NCBI GenBank assembly: GCA_019115455.1
Contig: DXDN01000025.1
Location: forward strand, 1-64,000
Origin: Candidatus Eubacterium faecigallinarum
GTDB taxonomy: Bacteria > Bacillota > Clostridia > Oscillospirales > Acutalibacteraceae
Direction: 5' to 3'
DNA: 64,000 nt
The notes under the pieces are model-generated. The model worked only from the letters and a program-made list of their open reading frames with translations. It was not told the DNA's origin and ran no database searches. Position 1 is the stretch's first letter, and each line of letters opens with the position of its first letter. Positions 55,610 through 63,458 of the stretch are shown here, piece by piece. The position numbers were made by a program, and so were the translations under genes.

Positions 55610-57157
55610 ATGACAAAGAAGAGAAGAAATGTTCTGGACAAGCTAAATACTTTGCTTAGGGGTAAGGATTTGAGGGTAACCTGCGGTGAGCCGTATACTG
55701 CTGTAAGGGAGTATGATTTTTCATCGTATTATCCCGAGGATAAGTATATCAGATATCAGGATGTTCCTGACGGGAAAGTCTTTGACATAAGAGATTTCGG
55801 CGCAGATACCGGCAGTACGGATAATTCAGATGCTATAAATCAGGCGGTTGACGCTGCAAGCACCGTAAGCGGAACAGTTCTTATAAGCGGCGGCGATTAT
55901 CTTTCCGGTACTGTGGTTCTTAAATCCGGGGTTACGCTTTTTATTGATAAAAATTCTTCCGTTACTGCAAGACCTGACGGCGAAAATCTGCGGGAAAAGT
56001 CGGCGCTGATGTATGCTGAAAATGTCAGCGACATTAGGCTGACCGGCGGCGGAAGGCTTAACGGCAACGGCAATCTTTTCGGCAGGGAGCCTGTGGCGCC
56101 GTGCAATAACACAAAGCCTGCCGAGTATATCGACGTTATTGAGATGCGCCGCGATTACCGCTCTCAGCTGCGTTTTGCTCATCCCTCAAAGTATGGCTGT
56201 CTGATCTATTTTAAGGATTGCAGAAATATTATGGTAGATAATTTTATTATAGAAAACAGCGCTTACTGGAGTTTTAAGCTGTCAAACTGCGACGGAGTAA
56301 AAATAACCGATTTTGTTATAAATAATAACCGCAACGTTGCCAATGCCGACGGTATTGATATTGCCGGTACCAGTAATGTTATAATTGACCACTGCTTTAT
56401 TTCTACTGCCGATGACGGCATAGTTATGAAAAATGCGTCCTGGCTCTTGAATCATAATAAAATGAGCAACATCAAGATAACAAACTGCGAAATTATCAGC
56501 AGAACCAACGCAGTTAAGGTGGGCACGGAAACTACATATGATATCAGCGACATAACAATAAGCGATTGTAAATTGTTTATGACCGACCTTTATCCGGGCA
56601 GCGTCAGCGGTATTTCGCTGGAGGCGTGTGACGGAACGGCGCTCAGTAATATCAGAATCAACAATATTACTATGGACAGATGCACCTGCCCAATTTTTAT
56701 AAGGCTTGGTAACAGAAACCGTGCCAAAACAGTGAACGCTCAGAGTGCCAACGCCATTGAATTTGGTGCCAAGGCGAGTAAAGGCGGAGAGCTTGACAAA
56801 AAGATTTTTAACTCCAAAAGCAGTATCAGCGATATATTGATTACAAATATCTCTGCCTCAGGGGTTGAAATACCGATAATAATAGCCGGATACAGGCAGG
56901 GCGGCAGAATTAAAAGAGTCGAAAACGTGATTTTGAGGAATATTGAGCTTGAATACGCCGATATTCCCGAAACCGTTGACAGAAGACTTTTTATACCTGA
57001 ATATGCGAAAGAATATCCCGAATGCTGGCGATTCAGAAATCTTCCTGCCTATGCTCTGTGGATCAGGCATGCGTCAAATATTCAGACTCAAAACTTTGTT
57101 TGCCGCCATCCGCGTAAAACATGGAAAAAAGAAACAATATATCTTGATGTTATATAA
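55610..57157 (+). CDS. Glycoside hydrolase family 28 (polygalacturonase-like)
   Basis: A 515-residue right-handed beta-helix enzyme predicted to cleave galacturonan or a related glycan. The early VFDIRDFGADTGSTDNSDAI is a pectinase hallmark. Likely catalytic Asp residues are D247 (NADGIDI) and D268/D269 (STADDGIV). The usual G-H-G segment is replaced by SRTNAVKVGTE, seen in GH28 branches acting on other linkages. No signal peptide, so likely intracellular and acting on imported oligomers. ATG 55610 is chosen with a weak GGTG site, because ATG 55565 lies in the palindrome. Monocistronic as far as seen. Confidence 0.82.
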   Translation: MTKKRRNVLDKLNTLLRGKDLRVTCGEPYTAVREYDFSSYYPEDKYIRYQDVPDGKVFDIRDFGADTGSTDNSDAINQAVDAASTVSGTVLISGGDYLSGTVVLKSGVTLFIDKNSSVTARPDGENLREKSALMYAENVSDIRLTGGGRLNGNGNLFGREPVAPCNNTKPAEYIDVIEMRRDYRSQLRFAHPSKYGCLIYFKDCRNIMVDNFIIENSAYWSFKLSNCDGVKITDFVINNNRNVANADGIDIAGTSNVIIDHCFISTADDGIVMKNASWLLNHNKMSNIKITNCEIISRTNAVKVGTETTYDISDITISDCKLFMTDLYPGSVSGISLEACDGTALSNIRINNITMDRCTCPIFIRLGNRNRAKTVNAQSANAIEFGAKASKGGELDKKIFNSKSSISDILITNISASGVEIPIIIAGYRQGGRIKRVENVILRNIELEYADIPETVDRRLFIPEYAKEYPECWRFRNLPAYALWIRHASNIQTQNFVCRHPRKTWKKETIYLDVI

Positions 57158-57181
57158 TTAATTATTTATATTAAAAAATTA

Positions 57182-57210
57182 TTGACTTATTACGCTCAAT
57201 TAAATATAAT
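57182..57210 (+). promoter_or_regulatory. Sigma-A promoter upstream of the Mn2+ riboswitch
   Basis: TTGACT at 57182 and TATAAT at 57205 are separated by 17 bp, which places the start just before the aptamer. Confidence 0.82.
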
Positions 57211-57216
57211 AATACA

Positions 57217-57321
57217 GAAAAAGGGAGTAGTTTGCATTTTATTTTGATAAAATGATGTGCTGGTCGTCAATACGGGAAACCCGGTCAGCGCTACACTGAT
57301 TGCAGTTAAAACGAGACTTTT
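57217..57321 (+). ncRNA. yybP-ykoY manganese riboswitch aptamer
   Basis: Conserved features of this class appear in order: AAAGGGAGTAG at 57220-57230, a variable hairpin (CATTTTA/TAAAATG), GTCGTCAATACG at 57263-57274, the GGGAAACCC hairpin, CCGGTCAG at 57281, and ACGAGAC at 57311-57317. These match, from memory, the Lactococcus lactis yybP-ykoY element, with its AAAGGGGAGUAGC start, GUCGUCAAU-bearing loop and CAAGACCUU end. Known members bind Mn2+ and turn on metal-efflux genes. The 3' strand is also part of a terminator hairpin. Confidence 0.82.
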
Positions 57322-57350
57322 GTCACTTGGTGATGAGGTCTCGTTTTTAA
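57308..57350 (+). terminator. Riboswitch expression-platform terminator
   Basis: AAAACGAGAC at 57308-57317 pairs with GTCTCGTTTT at 57338-57347, followed by more T and A residues. It shares the conserved ACGAGAC strand with the aptamer, so ligand binding should prevent the hairpin and allow read-through. Confidence 0.85.
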
Positions 57351-57418
57351 AAATTACGCAGCCATTTTTTGCCCGGCAACGGGCTGATTATAGGATTATA
57401 GTAAAAGGAGAAATGAAA

Positions 57419-58597
57419 ATGGTAGAAACAATTCTGATGAACTCATCTGTTTTGTCAGATTTTGCCAATTTGTTTTCCAACGTGCTCAACATTGAATGGA
57501 GAATGGTTTTAATGTGGGCAGTAGGCGGAATACTTATCTTTTTGGCAATCAAAAAGCAGATGGAACCGACATTACTTTTGCCTATGGGCTTTGGTACAAT
57601 CCTTGTAAATCTTCCGATGTCAGGCGCAATTACGCAGGATGCGGAGGCGGTGCTCAAGGGGCTTGAGTCAAACGGACCTCTGACAGAGCTTTTTAATGCA
57701 GGTATCGCAAACGAGCTTTTCCCGCTTCTTCTGTTTATCGGTATCGGCGCTATGATAGATTTCGGACCGCTGCTTAAGAACCCGTGGCTTATGCTTTTCG
57801 GTGCCGCAGCTCAGTTCGGTATCTTCTTCACATTCTTTGTAGCAAGCTTCTTCTTCGATGTAAACGACGCTGCGTCAATTGCTATTATCGGTGCTGCTGA
57901 CGGTCCTACATCTATTTTCGTTGCTAACGAGCTTGGTTCAAAGTATCTCGGCGCAATCATGGTAGCCGCTTACTCTTACATGGCTCTTGTTCCGATTGTT
58001 CAGCCGCCTGTAATCAGGGCTGTAACAACCAAGAAAGAGCGCAGAATCAGAATGAAATATAAACCCGGTGAGGTTTCAAAAACCACAAAGATTCTCTTCC
58101 CGATCGTTGTAACCATTATCGCCGGTCTTGTTGCTCCGAAGTCAGTTGCACTTGTAGGCTTCCTGATGTTCGGTAACCTTATCAGAGAGTGCGGCGTGCT
58201 CAATCAGCTTTCCGAAACAGCTCAGAACGCTCTTGCTAACCTGATTACAATACTTCTCGGTATCACAGTTGCTTCTCAGATGCACTACGAGCAGTTCGTA
58301 CAATGGGATACTATCCTCATTCTTGCTCTCGGACTTGTAGCATTTGTATTCGATACCGTAGGCGGTGTTCTGTTTGCTAAGGTTATCAATATTTTCCTTA
58401 AGGGCGACAAGAAGATTAATCCTATGATCGGCGCGGCAGGTATTTCCGCATTCCCGATGAGCGGACGTGTTGTAAACCAGATGGGACTTAAGGAGGATAA
58501 TCAGAACTTCCTTCTTATGCAGTCAATCAGTGTAAACGTATCAGGTCAGATCGCTTCCGTAATCGCAGGCGGACTTATCCTGACACTCGTATCATAA
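57419..58597 (+). CDS. OadB-like sodium-translocating decarboxylase beta-subunit family membrane protein
   Basis: A 392-residue polytopic membrane protein of the oxaloacetate/glutaconyl-CoA/methylmalonyl-CoA decarboxylase beta-subunit family, which pumps Na+. Key Klebsiella OadB positions appear kept: D161 in GAADGPTS (D203), N334 and G338 in NPMIG (N373, G377), S343 (S382) and R350 (R389). The usual C-terminal HAMGPNVAG reads QSISVNVSG. No carboxytransferase alpha or biotin protein gene adjoins it; a small partner gene follows. It sits behind a Mn2+ riboswitch, so a cation-transport role is possible. ATG 57419 is chosen for AAGGAG spacing (8 nt); ATG 57413 is too close. Confidence 0.85.
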   Translation: MVETILMNSSVLSDFANLFSNVLNIEWRMVLMWAVGGILIFLAIKKQMEPTLLLPMGFGTILVNLPMSGAITQDAEAVLKGLESNGPLTELFNAGIANELFPLLLFIGIGAMIDFGPLLKNPWLMLFGAAAQFGIFFTFFVASFFFDVNDAASIAIIGAADGPTSIFVANELGSKYLGAIMVAAYSYMALVPIVQPPVIRAVTTKKERRIRMKYKPGEVSKTTKILFPIVVTIIAGLVAPKSVALVGFLMFGNLIRECGVLNQLSETAQNALANLITILLGITVASQMHYEQFVQWDTILILALGLVAFVFDTVGGVLFAKVINIFLKGDKKINPMIGAAGISAFPMSGRVVNQMGLKEDNQNFLLMQSISVNVSGQIASVIAGGLILTLVS

Positions 58598-58615
58598 CAG
58601 GAGGTTATTGGGCAT

Positions 58616-58810
58616 ATGTATAATTTGTTAATGACTGTTCTCATGGCAGTATCAATTAATGCCGACAGCTGGAAGAACTCCCTGCCGGTTGTGCTTTTCG
58701 GTATGGTCGGTATTTTCATTGTAATCGGCGTTATTGTTCTTTTAACTTATCTGCTTAATAAGGTAACCTCAAAATCCTCAAAAAAGAAGGATAAGAACAA
58801 GGACGAATAA
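58616..58810 (+). CDS. Small membrane protein, OadG-like
   Basis: A 64-residue protein with one membrane helix (about 24-48, LPVVLFGMVGIFIVIGVIVL region) and a Lys-rich cytosolic tail. The layout resembles the gamma subunit of Na+-pumping decarboxylases, which stabilises the alpha-beta complex. It begins 19 bp after the OadB-like gene with AGGAGG and is surely co-transcribed. The zinc-binding His-rich tail of classical OadG is absent; here the tail is only basic. Confidence 0.7.
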   Translation: MYNLLMTVLMAVSINADSWKNSLPVVLFGMVGIFIVIGVIVLLTYLLNKVTSKSSKKKDKNKDE

Positions 58811-60102: not shown

Positions 60103-60477
60103 TTATTTCTGATTAAGTTGAGCGGCAAGCTTTTTTATGGCTTCAAAGCTTTCGTTGCTGATTATGTGTTCCATTTTGCAGGCGTCGTCCACTGCTGTTT
60201 GAGAATCAACTCCCAGACTTATGAGCCAGTCGGATATCGTAGTGTGACGCTCATACATTTTCTCGGCAATCTCAAGTCCGCTCTCCAGCAGGGTAATATA
60301 TCCGTTTTCGTCCACATCAATGTAACCGTTTTGCCTTAAGTTCTTCATCGCCACGCTGACGCTGGGTTTGGAGAATTCCAGCTCGTTTGCTATGTCAATA
60401 GACCGAACAAGCCCTTTCTTGTTTTTTATCATCAGTATTGTTTCCAGATAATTTTCTGCGGATTCATGAATCTTCAT
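60103..60477 (-). CDS. DtxR-family iron-dependent transcriptional regulator
   Basis: A 124-residue repressor with an N-terminal winged helix (RSIDIANELEFSKPSVSVAM) and a dimerisation/metal domain holding DACKMEHIIS. The C-x2-E-H pattern matches the Fe2+ site of DtxR/IdeR (C102, E105, H106) better than the Glu set of MntR. The SH3-like third domain is absent, as in the short clostridial group. It is divergent from feoA, and palindromes beside feo suggest it represses iron uptake when Fe2+ is sufficient. The ATG at 60477 is kept for the conserved HESAENYLETI start. Confidence 0.9.
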   Translation of the reverse strand: MKIHESAENYLETILMIKNKKGLVRSIDIANELEFSKPSVSVAMKNLRQNGYIDVDENGYITLLESGLEIAEKMYERHTTISDWLISLGVDSQTAVDDACKMEHIISNESFEAIKKLAAQLNQK

Positions 60478-60518
60478 GCCGTCACGCTCACATTCTTTAA
60501 TTTAATTATATTTTATTC

Positions 60519-60547
60519 ATTATATCATTTTAGTATGTCATTTTCAA
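60519..60547 (-). promoter_or_regulatory. Sigma-A promoter of the DtxR-type regulator gene
   Basis: On the minus strand TTGAAA and TATAAT are separated by 17 bp, 41 bp before the start codon. Confidence 0.78.
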
Positions 60548-60605
60548 TAACGGCAGGGCATATAATTATTGTGTAAAAATATTTGAAATATTTAAATTTT
60601 TATTA

Positions 60606-60657
60606 TTGACAAAATAGTTAGCTAATGCTAACATATACGCGATTAGTAAAGGCTAAC
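60606..60657 (+). promoter_or_regulatory. feo promoter with two DtxR-type operator sites
   Basis: TTGACA at 60606 and TAACAT at 60629 are 17 bp apart. GTTAGC-taat-GCTAAC (60617-60632) overlaps spacer and -10. A weaker copy with the same 6-4-6 layout, ATTAGT-aaag-GCTAAC, lies at 60642-60657. Both resemble DtxR half-sites (TTAG...CTAA). Confidence 0.75.
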
Positions 60658-60727
60658 TAAAAACATACATCAGACGAGCCAAGTCATATGTTAAATTGAT
60701 TTGACTCTGGACAGAAAGCGGAGAAAA

Positions 60728-60949
60728 ATGAAAACACTCAAACAGATTAAAATAGGCAAAAGTGCAACTGTAGTTAAGCTGCACGGAGAAGGCGCCTTGA
60801 AAAGAAGAATTATGGATATGGGCATTACCAAGGGAGTAAACGTCTATGTCCGCAAGGCTGCACCGCTGGGCGACCCCATTGAAGTTACTGTTAGAGGTTA
60901 TGAGCTTACACTCAGAAAGGCAGACGCCGATATGATTGAGGTTAAATAA
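60728..60949 (+). CDS. feoA: Ferrous iron transport protein A
   Basis: A 73-residue SH3-like cytosolic protein that assists FeoB in Fe2+ uptake. Typical features are GALKRRIMDMGITKGV and APLGDPIEVTVRGYELTLRKADA. ATG 60728 follows GCGGAG; the ORF extends 27 bp upstream without a site. Only one feoA is present, 106 bp before feoB; the gap contains a further operator-like palindrome. Confidence 0.93.
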   Translation: MKTLKQIKIGKSATVVKLHGEGALKRRIMDMGITKGVNVYVRKAAPLGDPIEVTVRGYELTLRKADADMIEVK

Positions 60950-60998
60950 AAATCACTTCATATTATACAGATAGCGAAATGATATAGGACAGTTACAG

Positions 60999-61014
60999 GT
61001 TAGCAGCCACTAAC
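60999..61014 (+). promoter_or_regulatory. Third DtxR-type operator-like palindrome, before feoB
   Basis: GTTAGC-agcc-ACTAAC has the same 6-4-6 layout as the sites before feoA. A TATAAG at 61018 might serve as a -10 for a feoB-proximal promoter. Confidence 0.6.
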
Positions 61015-61055
61015 TCATATAAGACAGTGTGATAAATTAGTGAAGGGAATTACAT

Positions 61056-63458
61056 ATGGAAATCAAAATCGCTCTTGCAGGTAATCCGAATTGCGGAAAG
61101 ACTACACTTTTTAATGCGCTGACAGGCTCAAATCAGTTTGTCGGTAACTGGCCGGGTGTTACTGTTGAAAAAAAGGAAGGCAGGCTGAAAAAAGACCAAA
61201 ATGTTATTGTTACGGACCTGCCCGGAGTCTATTCTCTTTCTCCGTATACCCTTGAGGAGGTAGTCGCCCGAAATTATCTTGTCGACGAGCGGCCCGACGC
61301 CATTTTAAATATAATTGACGCAACTAATCTTGAGAGAAATCTGTATCTTACAACTCAGCTTATTGAACTGGGCATTCCGGTGGTTGCGGCTCTTAATATG
61401 ATGGATATAGTGAAAAAGAACGGCGACAGAATACGTATTGACGAACTATCACGCCGTATCGGCTGCCCGATTGTTGAGATATCCGCCTTGAAGATGACGG
61501 GTATTGACGAGGCTGCTCAGGCGGCGACAGAGGCGGCAAGGTCTCATAAAACCGCAAAGCTACAGACATTTTCCGCCACAGTGGAAAATGTTATTTCCGA
61601 TATAGAAAAAATCGCCCTTCATGGAGTACCCGCTGTGCAGAAGCGCTGGTATGCCGTTAAGGTTTTTGAGCGTGATGAAAAGGTGCTGGCAAGGCTGAAG
61701 CTTAGCACAGATACGCTAAAAAAAGTAGAGCGCCTGATAAGCGATACAGAAAAAAAGCTTGACGATGACGCCGAAAGCATTATCACAAACGAGAGATACA
61801 ACTACATAACAGATCTCATTAAAGGAGCGTATAAAAGGGCTGGCGCTGGCAAGCTTTCCACCTCGGACAAAATCGACAGAATTGTTACAAACAGATTTTT
61901 AGCGCTGCCGATATTTGTTATTGTAATGTTTCTTGTTTATTACATTTCGTGGACTACCGTGGGTACATTTGTAACTGACTGGATGAACGACGGCGTGTTC
62001 GGCGACGGCTGGCACCTGACAGGGCAGAGCCAGTACAACGACGCTATGAATGATTTCGCCGCTGAGTATATCTGGACTCAGGATGTTGTTGACACGGTTA
62101 ATGCAGCTGCGGCTGATGACGCTGTCGGCGCTAAGGAGCTTCAGTCAGCTATGACGGACGGGGATTATGCCGCTTTTGAAGAGGCATATGCTTCTTACGG
62201 AGATTCTCTTGCCAAGGACGGCTATGATATTTCCTATGCTGTTAATGATGCACTGACTTCTCAAAATGTTCCGCAGTCGCTGGATTACGGAATTTACGTG
62301 CCCGGTATACCTACCATTACAGAGCACGCCCTTGATTCAATAAACTGCGCCGACTGGCTTAAAAGTCTTGTGGTGGACGGAATCATCGGCGGTGTCGGAG
62401 CAGTTCTGGGATTTGTTCCCCAGATGCTGGTGCTCTTCATTTTGCTGGCGTTTCTTGAGGGGTGCGGATATATGTCCCGTGTTGCGTTTATCATGGACAG
62501 AATTTTCAGAAAATTCGGTCTTTCCGGCAAATCCTTTATCCCAATGCTTGTAGGCACAGGCTGTGGTGTCCCCGGTATAATGGCGAGCCGAACCATTGAA
62601 AATGAGCGCGACCGCAGAATGACTGTAATTACCACAACCTTTATACCCTGTAGTGCTAAAATGCCGGTTGTTGCGCTTATTTCCACAGTGCTTTTTCACG
62701 GCGAATGGTGGGTGGCGCCCAGCGCTTACTTTGTCGGAGTGGCGGCAGTTGTGATTTCAGGAATTATGCTTAAGAAAACACGGCTGTTTGCCGGTGATAC
62801 GGCGCCGTTTGTAATGGAGCTTCCGGCATATCATATGCCCACGGCAGGCAATGTGCTTCGTTCAATGTGGGAGCGCGCCTCGTCATTTATAAAAAAAGCA
62901 GGAACGGTCATTTTGATTGCGACGGTGTTCGTGTGGGTAGCGTCTCATTTCGGAAAGCTGGAAAACGGCGGTATCGGATTTGATACTGATATGCAGCTGG
63001 AATCATCACTGCTCGGTATTATCGGTAACGCTATAAAGACGATATTTATACCGCTGGGCTTCGGAAATATAAAAGCCGCTATTGCCACGATTATGGGACT
63101 CGTCGCTAAGGAAGAGGTTGTCGGAGTATTCGGAGTGCTTGATTTTGAAGAGTTCACTCCCGTGGCTGGTTATTCATTTTTGGTATTCAATCTGCTTTGC
63201 GCCCCGTGCTGTGCCGCAATGTCAGCAATCAGAAGAGAAATGAACAGCGCCAAATGGACTCTCTTTGCCATCGGCTATCAGTGTGTTTTTGCTTATGCTG
63301 TATCCTTTATGATTTATCAGTTTGGTATGCTGTTTATCGGTCAGGCAGATATTCTCGGAGTAATAGCGGCGGTAGTTGTTCTCGGCTTTATGATTTATAT
63401 GCTGGTTCGTCCGCAGAAAAAATACAATAAGCCGACGGTCAGAGCGGTTGACGCATAA
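61056..63458 (+). CDS. feoB: Ferrous iron transporter FeoB
   Basis: An 800-residue membrane transporter for Fe2+. The N-terminal G domain has GNPNCGKTT (9-17), DLPGVYSL (G3) and NMMD (G4), followed by a helical regulatory domain. The membrane part shows the two Gate motifs, SFIPMLVGTGCGVPG with its Cys and CAPCCAAMSAI. Between the first helix (about 280-305) and GIIGGVGAVLGFVPQ lies an extracytoplasmic stretch of about 110 residues (roughly 312-420), much longer than in E. coli FeoB. AAGGGA precedes ATG 61056. Followed by a Cys-rich small protein. Confidence 0.95.
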   Translation: MEIKIALAGNPNCGKTTLFNALTGSNQFVGNWPGVTVEKKEGRLKKDQNVIVTDLPGVYSLSPYTLEEVVARNYLVDERPDAILNIIDATNLERNLYLTTQLIELGIPVVAALNMMDIVKKNGDRIRIDELSRRIGCPIVEISALKMTGIDEAAQAATEAARSHKTAKLQTFSATVENVISDIEKIALHGVPAVQKRWYAVKVFERDEKVLARLKLSTDTLKKVERLISDTEKKLDDDAESIITNERYNYITDLIKGAYKRAGAGKLSTSDKIDRIVTNRFLALPIFVIVMFLVYYISWTTVGTFVTDWMNDGVFGDGWHLTGQSQYNDAMNDFAAEYIWTQDVVDTVNAAAADDAVGAKELQSAMTDGDYAAFEEAYASYGDSLAKDGYDISYAVNDALTSQNVPQSLDYGIYVPGIPTITEHALDSINCADWLKSLVVDGIIGGVGAVLGFVPQMLVLFILLAFLEGCGYMSRVAFIMDRIFRKFGLSGKSFIPMLVGTGCGVPGIMASRTIENERDRRMTVITTTFIPCSAKMPVVALISTVLFHGEWWVAPSAYFVGVAAVVISGIMLKKTRLFAGDTAPFVMELPAYHMPTAGNVLRSMWERASSFIKKAGTVILIATVFVWVASHFGKLENGGIGFDTDMQLESSLLGIIGNAIKTIFIPLGFGNIKAAIATIMGLVAKEEVVGVFGVLDFEEFTPVAGYSFLVFNLLCAPCCAAMSAIRREMNSAKWTLFAIGYQCVFAYAVSFMIYQFGMLFIGQADILGVIAAVVVLGFMIYMLVRPQKKYNKPTVRAVDA

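Follow-up and report, generated by a model that had tools for sequence, protein, structure and literature searches.

Among the closest described systems are the Mn2+ (yybP-ykoY) riboswitches. In the Mn2+-bound aptamers described in PMC6754395, L3 reads UCA41AU43UC in L. lactis and ACA48U49ACU in X. oryzae, and the N7 of that L3 adenine (A41 in L. lactis) provides a Mn2+-specific contact. An ON logic, i.e., antitermination through P1, has been reported for the L. lactis RNA (PMC11087558), and the mntP and alx leaders of E. coli have been described as Mn-sensing riboswitches (PMC9603457). Here, a leader assigned to this class is described in a 64,000-nucleotide stretch of Candidatus Eubacterium faecigallinarum DNA (assembly GCA_019115455.1, contig DXDN01000025.1, positions 1 to 64,000, forward strand; hereafter, the window), where it precedes two genes, oadB, for the beta subunit of a Na+-translocating decarboxylase, and a short gene resembling oadG. 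Judging from comparative sequence and structure analysis, Mn2+, perhaps together with alkalinity, probably turns on this membrane half of the decarboxylase, made up of beta and a small gamma-like subunit, through a yybP-ykoY ON switch. The RNA class is already known; the new part is the recurrent use of a Mn2+-class riboswitch before a Na+-pump subunit. No report of a yybP-ykoY or Mn2+ riboswitch with oadB or oxaloacetate decarboxylase (OAD) was found in the open-licence literature searched, in keeping with an earlier, sequence-only reading of the locus that knew of no such pairing.

Class assignment and switch architecture

The Rfam model of the class, RF00080, did not reach its gathering score anywhere in the window, and a search of positions 57100-57500 at E ≤ 10 was likewise empty. 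That score, 45 bits, is a database cut-off and not an RNA feature, and it was reached in none of 291 genomes of the taxonomic class and none of 60 of the family, mntP leaders included. Weaker matches numbered 29 in the class sample (about 18-39 bits) and 16 in the family sample. The downstream gene was read for 25 of the former (L076, L077, L079 and L083 were left out) and for three of the latter (L032-L034), the family places L035-L047 being covered by motif scan only. By eye, these genes comprised mntP, P-type ATPase, CaCA, TMEM165/GDT1 and htpX-like genes and one oadB; L059 had no clear first open reading frame (ORF) downstream, and Pfam agreed for all eight genes checked. The oadB-linked match (L073; 24.1 bits, E 1.1e-4) precedes an oadB of the window's clade. 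Since the same model puts mntP leaders of the taxonomic class below its cut-off, the miss in the window was not taken as a refutation. Clostridia members of the Mn2+ riboswitch class are missed by the Rfam cut-off, and the Rfam census of these RNAs probably undercounts them.

An alignment of 18 leaders of non-oadB Clostridia genes (A3), with P1, P1.2, P2, P3 and P3.1 set by hand, has 90.7% of its cells paired, double-sided changes at 19 of 24 pairs, and a covariation of 0.644 against 0.257 when shuffled. The covariance model built from it, R1, includes no oadB leader. It recognised the E. coli K-12 mntP and alx leaders as positive controls (50.3 and 23.0 bits, respectively) and gave a single match at E ≤ 10 in the entire window, i.e., the aptamer listed in Table 1. 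Likewise, a second model, R2, was built from an alignment of 38 oadB leaders only (A4) and recovered all 22 control leaders, namely the full A3 set of 18, two from the window's own genome (mntP and ATPase), and two from E. coli (mntP, 33.0 bits; alx, 25.0 bits). Because A4 was aligned with R1, R2 takes over the R1 structure; its sequences are independent. The A4 pairing counts (90.9% of cells paired, double changes at 20 of 24 pairs, covariation of 0.572, compared with 0.196 after shuffling and no more than 0.132 in slid controls) favour that structure, to which A4 was fitted. In the covariance-model check proposed in the sequence-only reading, RF00080 thus stayed below its cut-off and R1 recognised the leader.

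The conserved core of the class is also present in the window, with L1 GGGAGUA at 57223-57229 and a 3' (A/G)AGAC at 57313-57317, and the L1 GAGUA and 3' AGAC are invariant in all 38 oadB leaders. The equivalent of A41 is an adenine in 37 of the 38 (A57269 of UCAAUAC in the window); the sole exception, L127, is probably a misaligned row, because its leader contains CGTCAATCCCGG. By these sequence and structure tests, which stand apart from the Rfam cut-off, the RNA belongs to the Mn2+ (yybP-ykoY) riboswitch class, as first proposed, and Mn2+ is the presumed ligand of the window copy.

Folding points to two competing structures. In the unconstrained fold (-38.7 kcal/mol, z -3.3), the terminator forms and P1 is absent. 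When P1 is forced, the full aptamer (P1, P2, P3/L3/P3.1, and P4) forms at -24.4 kcal/mol and the terminator is reduced to a five-pair tip; the terminator hairpin alone amounts to -18.6 kcal/mol. As the 5' arm of the terminator contains both ACGAGAC and the P1 3' strand, terminator and P1 are mutually exclusive. This overlap recurs in 35 of 38 oadB leaders (all but L096, L152, and L159) versus 11 of 760 control windows taken 300-900 bases downstream. A rule-based scan called no terminator at the locus, presumably because its rule needs a run of Ts beyond the stem, and the Ts of this hairpin are themselves paired within it. The promoter, the ON-type terminator sharing ACGAGAC, and OadB as the target had all been put forward in the sequence-only reading, and each held up (Table 1); the aptamer begins about 9 bases 3' of the promoter.

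Based on this architecture, the oadB leader would act as a transcriptional ON switch in vivo. In the absence of the metal, the nascent ACGAGAC...GUCUCGU would pair as the terminator, leaving oadB-oadG untranscribed, while Mn2+ docking between L1 and L3 would hold P1, block the terminator and allow oadB-oadG to be made. OadB-OadG would then export Na+ together with an alpha subunit and a biotin carrier whose genes lie elsewhere, and the Na+ pump would thereby join the Mn2+ regulon of mntP and the P-type ATPase.

Table 1. Features of the oadB locus (window coordinates)
Feature	Position	Strand	Evidence and remarks
Sigma-70-type promoter TTGACT-17-TATAAT	57182..57210	+	11/12 consensus matches; expected start is first aptamer bases
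yybP-ykoY (Mn2+) riboswitch aptamer	57219..57321	+	R1 covariance model, 42.8 bits, E 5.3e-8
Aptamer P1	57219-57223 with 57317-57321	+	
Aptamer L1 GGAGUA	57224-57229	+	3' side of L1, GAGA 57313-57316
Aptamer L3 UCAAUAC	57267-57273	+	predicted metal-contacting A (L. lactis A41) is 57269
Intrinsic terminator hairpin	57308..57347	+	U-tract 57344-57348; 5' arm holds ACGAGAC and P1 3' strand
oadB, Na+-translocating decarboxylase beta subunit, 394 aa	57413..58597	+	start 57413 or 57419; PF03977, TIGR01109, PDB 6iva
Small oadG-like gamma subunit, 64 aa	58616..58810	+	PF04277 25.1 bits (cut-off 27), NF040909 20.9 bits (cut-off 25); 58810 is the stop codon end

Distribution and targets of the switch

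The pairing recurs beyond the window, as seen in a survey of 80 named oadB loci, the best 80 among the matches listed. A simple descriptor gave 29 matches in these loci versus 32 in 4000 shuffled sequences. R1 gave 31 matches at E ≤ 5, of which 30 are complete and one (L132) is truncated where its contig stops. Each lies immediately before oadB, and the 508 kb of the 80 loci gave no other. Three more descriptor matches were confirmed by R2, in Gemmiger formicilis ATCC 27749 (L086), L088, and Faecalibacterium sp. I4-1-79 (L091), bringing the total to 34 of 80 loci; when run over 71 loci, R2 gave only one further match besides L132, at chance level (L090, E 0.99). In the family sample, the switch was found at eight of 29 fetched clade-1 oadB loci. 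The association thus appears patchy, with several probable gains or losses. Its occurrence in gut and rumen bacteria suggests that Mn2+ controls Na+ expulsion there, and this would couple the Na+ gradient of common gut bacteria to their Mn2+ status, the carriers including the Gemmiger and Faecalibacterium named above.

An R1 census of 200 family genomes, in which targets were assigned by the first long downstream ORF, blastp versus references, and Pfam, placed the switch at 130 sites in 105 genomes. P-type ATPase genes were the most frequent targets (56), with oadB (19, comprising 11 fetched and eight already known) and mntP (19) tied behind them, followed by CaCA/Na_Ca_ex genes (14). Minor targets included CitMHS (two), TetR regulators (two), TMEM165, TerC and an ABC ATPase (one each); one product had no Pfam match, three places had no readable ORF, and 11 weak places were not fetched. 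The window's own genome has three switches, preceding mntP (C21, 71.5 bits; PF02659), a P-type ATPase gene (C27, 49.4 bits; PF00122), and oadB, respectively. Under stricter filters, which can lose weak copies, the oadB switch was the sole one found in 11 of the 19 genomes that carry it.

Some of the rarer targets merit mention in their own right. The CitMHS (citrate transporter family) genes stand directly behind the switch at L198 and L203, and citrate uptake through them could supply an oxaloacetate decarboxylase. TetR-type regulator genes occupy the same position in two genomes (L195 and L237). Finally, one genome (G227) has two switches, L057 and L082, each before an htpX-like gene, with the L057 product matching Peptidase_M48.

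The Na+-pump subunit and competing explanations

OadB scores 496.5 bits against PF03977 (cut-off 31.6) and 412.2 bits against TIGR01109 (cut-off 190.6), and its nearest solved relative is PDB 6iva (E 3.6e-92). We take the residues essential for Na+ pumping in the Klebsiella enzyme to be D203, Y229, N373, G377, S382, and R389. Through the 6iva numbering, these correspond to D163, Y189, N336, G340, S345, and R352 of OadB, all invariant in the 11 sequences of alignment A1. On this evidence, OadB is predicted to be a normal OAD beta subunit. The short membrane-protein ORF 3' of oadB resembled the oadG-like gene, by eye, in 28 of 30 listed loci.

The host genome also encodes candidate partners. Specifically, a Carboxyl_trans protein, a biotin carrier and an alpha/PycB-type subunit lie together on another contig (C24), away from oadB, and a second oadG-oadB pair, its gamma subunit with a full score, lies on C22; the earlier observation that no alpha subunit stands beside OadB is accurate. 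Across 40 genomes, PYC_OADA was found in 16 of the 19 with an oadB switch and in 19 of the 21 with a clade-1 oadB and no detected switch, while PF01039 matches, found in 31 of the 40, are of families too mixed (ACC, MmdA, and others) to point to the partner subunit. In one genome (G447), the switch-oadB gene lies about 0.5 kb upstream of a same-strand operon of gamma, biotin carrier, beta and alpha genes; in its genus-mate (G042), a draft assembly, switch-oadB and operon fall on separate contigs. We infer that OadB pairs with a distant alpha subunit.

A number of findings weigh against the proposal that Mn2+ turns on such a pump, the Rfam miss among them. With R1 and R2, the switch went undetected at 46 of the 80 oadB loci, four of which (L123, L144, L148, and L157) have fewer than 400 bases upstream, and a quick OadB tree (79 labelled rows) required at least 18 gains or losses of the switch, five of them forced by well-supported branches; the switch is therefore not essential to OadB. 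The gamma-like protein falls below the curated cut-offs (Table 1) and is hence called oadG-like only. An alpha subunit lies near the switch-oadB gene in only one of the 16 genomes having one, many of which are drafts. Three switch genomes lack PYC_OADA, i.e., G010 (69% complete), G400 (84%), and G420, the last giving no match although listed as 100% complete. Finally, simple patterns placed UCA at the start of L3 in the majority of the 38 oadB leaders (29 UCA, six ACA, two CCA, and one misplaced), as opposed to ACA-type L3 in all 19 census mntP leaders.

The L3 tally bears on an alternative in which the RNAs linked to oadB keep the yybP fold but differ in specificity and respond to another ion, such as Na+ or Ca2+. 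According to PMC7266159, the ligands of common yybP variants are probably other divalent ions, and Na+-I riboswitches control oxaloacetate decarboxylase genes in other bacteria (PMC9337991). The L3 subtype also tracks the gene, in that UCA prevails before oadB and CaCA genes (eight UCA, four ACA, and one other, n = 13), and ACA before mntP and ATPase genes (34 ACA, 18 UCA, and three other, n = 55). However, the aptamers solved with Mn2+ span both subtypes, namely UCAAUUC in L. lactis, to which the UCAAUAC of the window is close, and ACAUACU in X. oryzae (PMC6754395). The adenine giving the Mn2+-specific N7 contact is retained in all oadB leaders but L127, UCA-type leaders precede P-type ATPases too, and R1 and R2 each recognise the other's members. 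Structures with Mn2+ exist for both subtypes, so the UCA/ACA split was read as lineage or fine tuning, although a specificity shift would look the same. The tally slightly lowered our confidence in Mn2+ control of the pump subunit, which is still considered the probable explanation, and slightly raised that in the sensing of another ion, which is still considered unlikely. The pairing with oadB thus speaks directly to the wider question of other ions as ligands of some yybP RNAs.

The sequence-only reading had suggested that OadB (here, with OadG) itself effluxes Mn2+, perhaps in exchange for Na+, and this now appears highly improbable. The company kept by the switch speaks for it, as at 91 of the 130 family places the downstream gene belongs to a transporter family with a known or putative part in Mn2+/Ca2+ homeostasis. 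In addition, the 11 genomes noted above yielded no switch other than that of oadB, and in the window oadB has no alpha subunit gene beside it. Nevertheless, all six Na+-site residues are kept, the genome encodes an alpha subunit and a biotin carrier, relatives at 46 of the 80 loci have no detected switch, and mntP is retained in 18 of the 19 switch genomes. The intact Na+ residues, the presence of an alpha subunit in 16 of 19 genomes, the retention of mntP and the G447 operon, which the switch-oadB gene adjoins, all favour a Na+-pump subunit over a Mn2+ exporter. A related candidate, OadB as a replacement for MntP, was ruled out, mntP being present in 18 of the 19 switch genomes and 19 of the 21 clade-1-oadB genomes without a detected switch.

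Na+ pumps are well known to extrude Na+ when the pH is alkaline. It is possible, if tentative, that the switch mainly reports alkaline stress via Mn2+, with the pump aiding pH and Na+ homeostasis; this would be a refinement of Mn2+ control of the pump, and the two overlap in likelihood. In support, the E. coli mntP riboswitch is described as binding Mn2+ 17-22 fold tighter at pH 8.5 and as partly activated by alkaline pH (PMC9603457), although the alkaline effect is known from E. coli only and would extend to Clostridia leaders by analogy. More generally, the purpose of the arrangement may be Na+/pH homeostasis under Mn2+ or alkaline stress, or a pump matched to metal-dependent oxaloacetate metabolism. 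The carboxyltransferase domain of the decarboxylase enzyme family holds a divalent metal, which makes a link between Mn2+ and oxaloacetate metabolism compatible with the switch. Na+-coupled Mn2+ efflux by CaCA/Na_Ca_ex proteins was considered as a general link and rejected, the gene being found in three of the 19 switch genomes versus one of the 21 without a detected switch. A bolder and doubtful extension holds that the yybP-type RNA could be a general ion-stress switch tying Mn2+ status to Na+ energetics in this large group of gut Clostridia, with the stand-alone OadB-OadG pair as a Na+ pump devoted to Mn2+ stress that may itself move or antiport Mn2+, or with the mostly UCA-type oadB leaders tuned to another ion.

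Neighbouring genes and comparison with known systems

The gene 5' of the switch matched models of pectin-degrading glycosidases, with every score below cut-off. The oadG-like gene is followed by genes for a helix-turn-helix regulator, a PepSY protein, a DtxR-type regulator, and feoA-feoB. Specifically, the DtxR-type metal regulator (124 aa, minus strand) adjoins feoA and feoB at 60103-63458, 1.3 kb past the oadG-like gene; this is perhaps a metal-related neighbourhood, and it could be chance. In several relatives, a prolyl-tRNA synthetase-like gene follows oadB-oadG, and in some an acyl carrier protein gene precedes oadB (by eye; among L012, L013, L018, L024, L028, L029, and L030). Elsewhere in the window, an S10-Clostridia ribosomal protein leader (RF03136, 32770-32854, plus strand; 37.7 bits, above cut-off) is the sole Rfam match at gathering score.

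Among known RNAs, the Na+-I riboswitch (DUF1646 motif) is alike in being ion-sensing and in controlling oxaloacetate decarboxylase genes in some bacteria (PMC9337991), but it is a distinct RNA. Its model found nothing at gathering score in the window, nothing in 57100-57500 at E ≤ 10, and nothing above gathering score in any of the 46 oadB loci without a detected switch. A second likeness is with RF02617, SSRC10 (Streptococcus sRNA 10, a small RNA), whose consensus shares GGGAGUAG...CGUCAAUACGG...GCGAGAC with the oadB leaders and which weakly matches three of them (L007, L008, and L009; 22-28 bits, cut-off 56). RF02617 differs in being catalogued as a small RNA and not as a riboswitch; given its resemblance to a yybP-ykoY leader, SSRC10 may be a misfiled Mn2+ riboswitch.

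The window OadB is like that of PDB 6iva and 6iww in its full PF03977 domain and conserved Na+-site residues; unlike theirs, its gene stands apart from the alpha subunit and has a very short gamma-like partner. The leader resembles RF00080 and the L. lactis aptamer in P1, P2 and P3/L3/P3.1, in the L1 GGGAGUA, in the invariant L3 adenine, and in antitermination through P1 (PMC11087558, PMC6754395), and it differs in its A-U-rich P1 and in an Rfam score below cut-off, as in other Clostridia members. In contrast to known yybP-ykoY riboswitches, it precedes a Na+-pump beta/gamma pair and not a known Mn2+ transporter gene, so that an abundant class of metal-sensing riboswitch gains a recurrent target outside Mn2+ transport.

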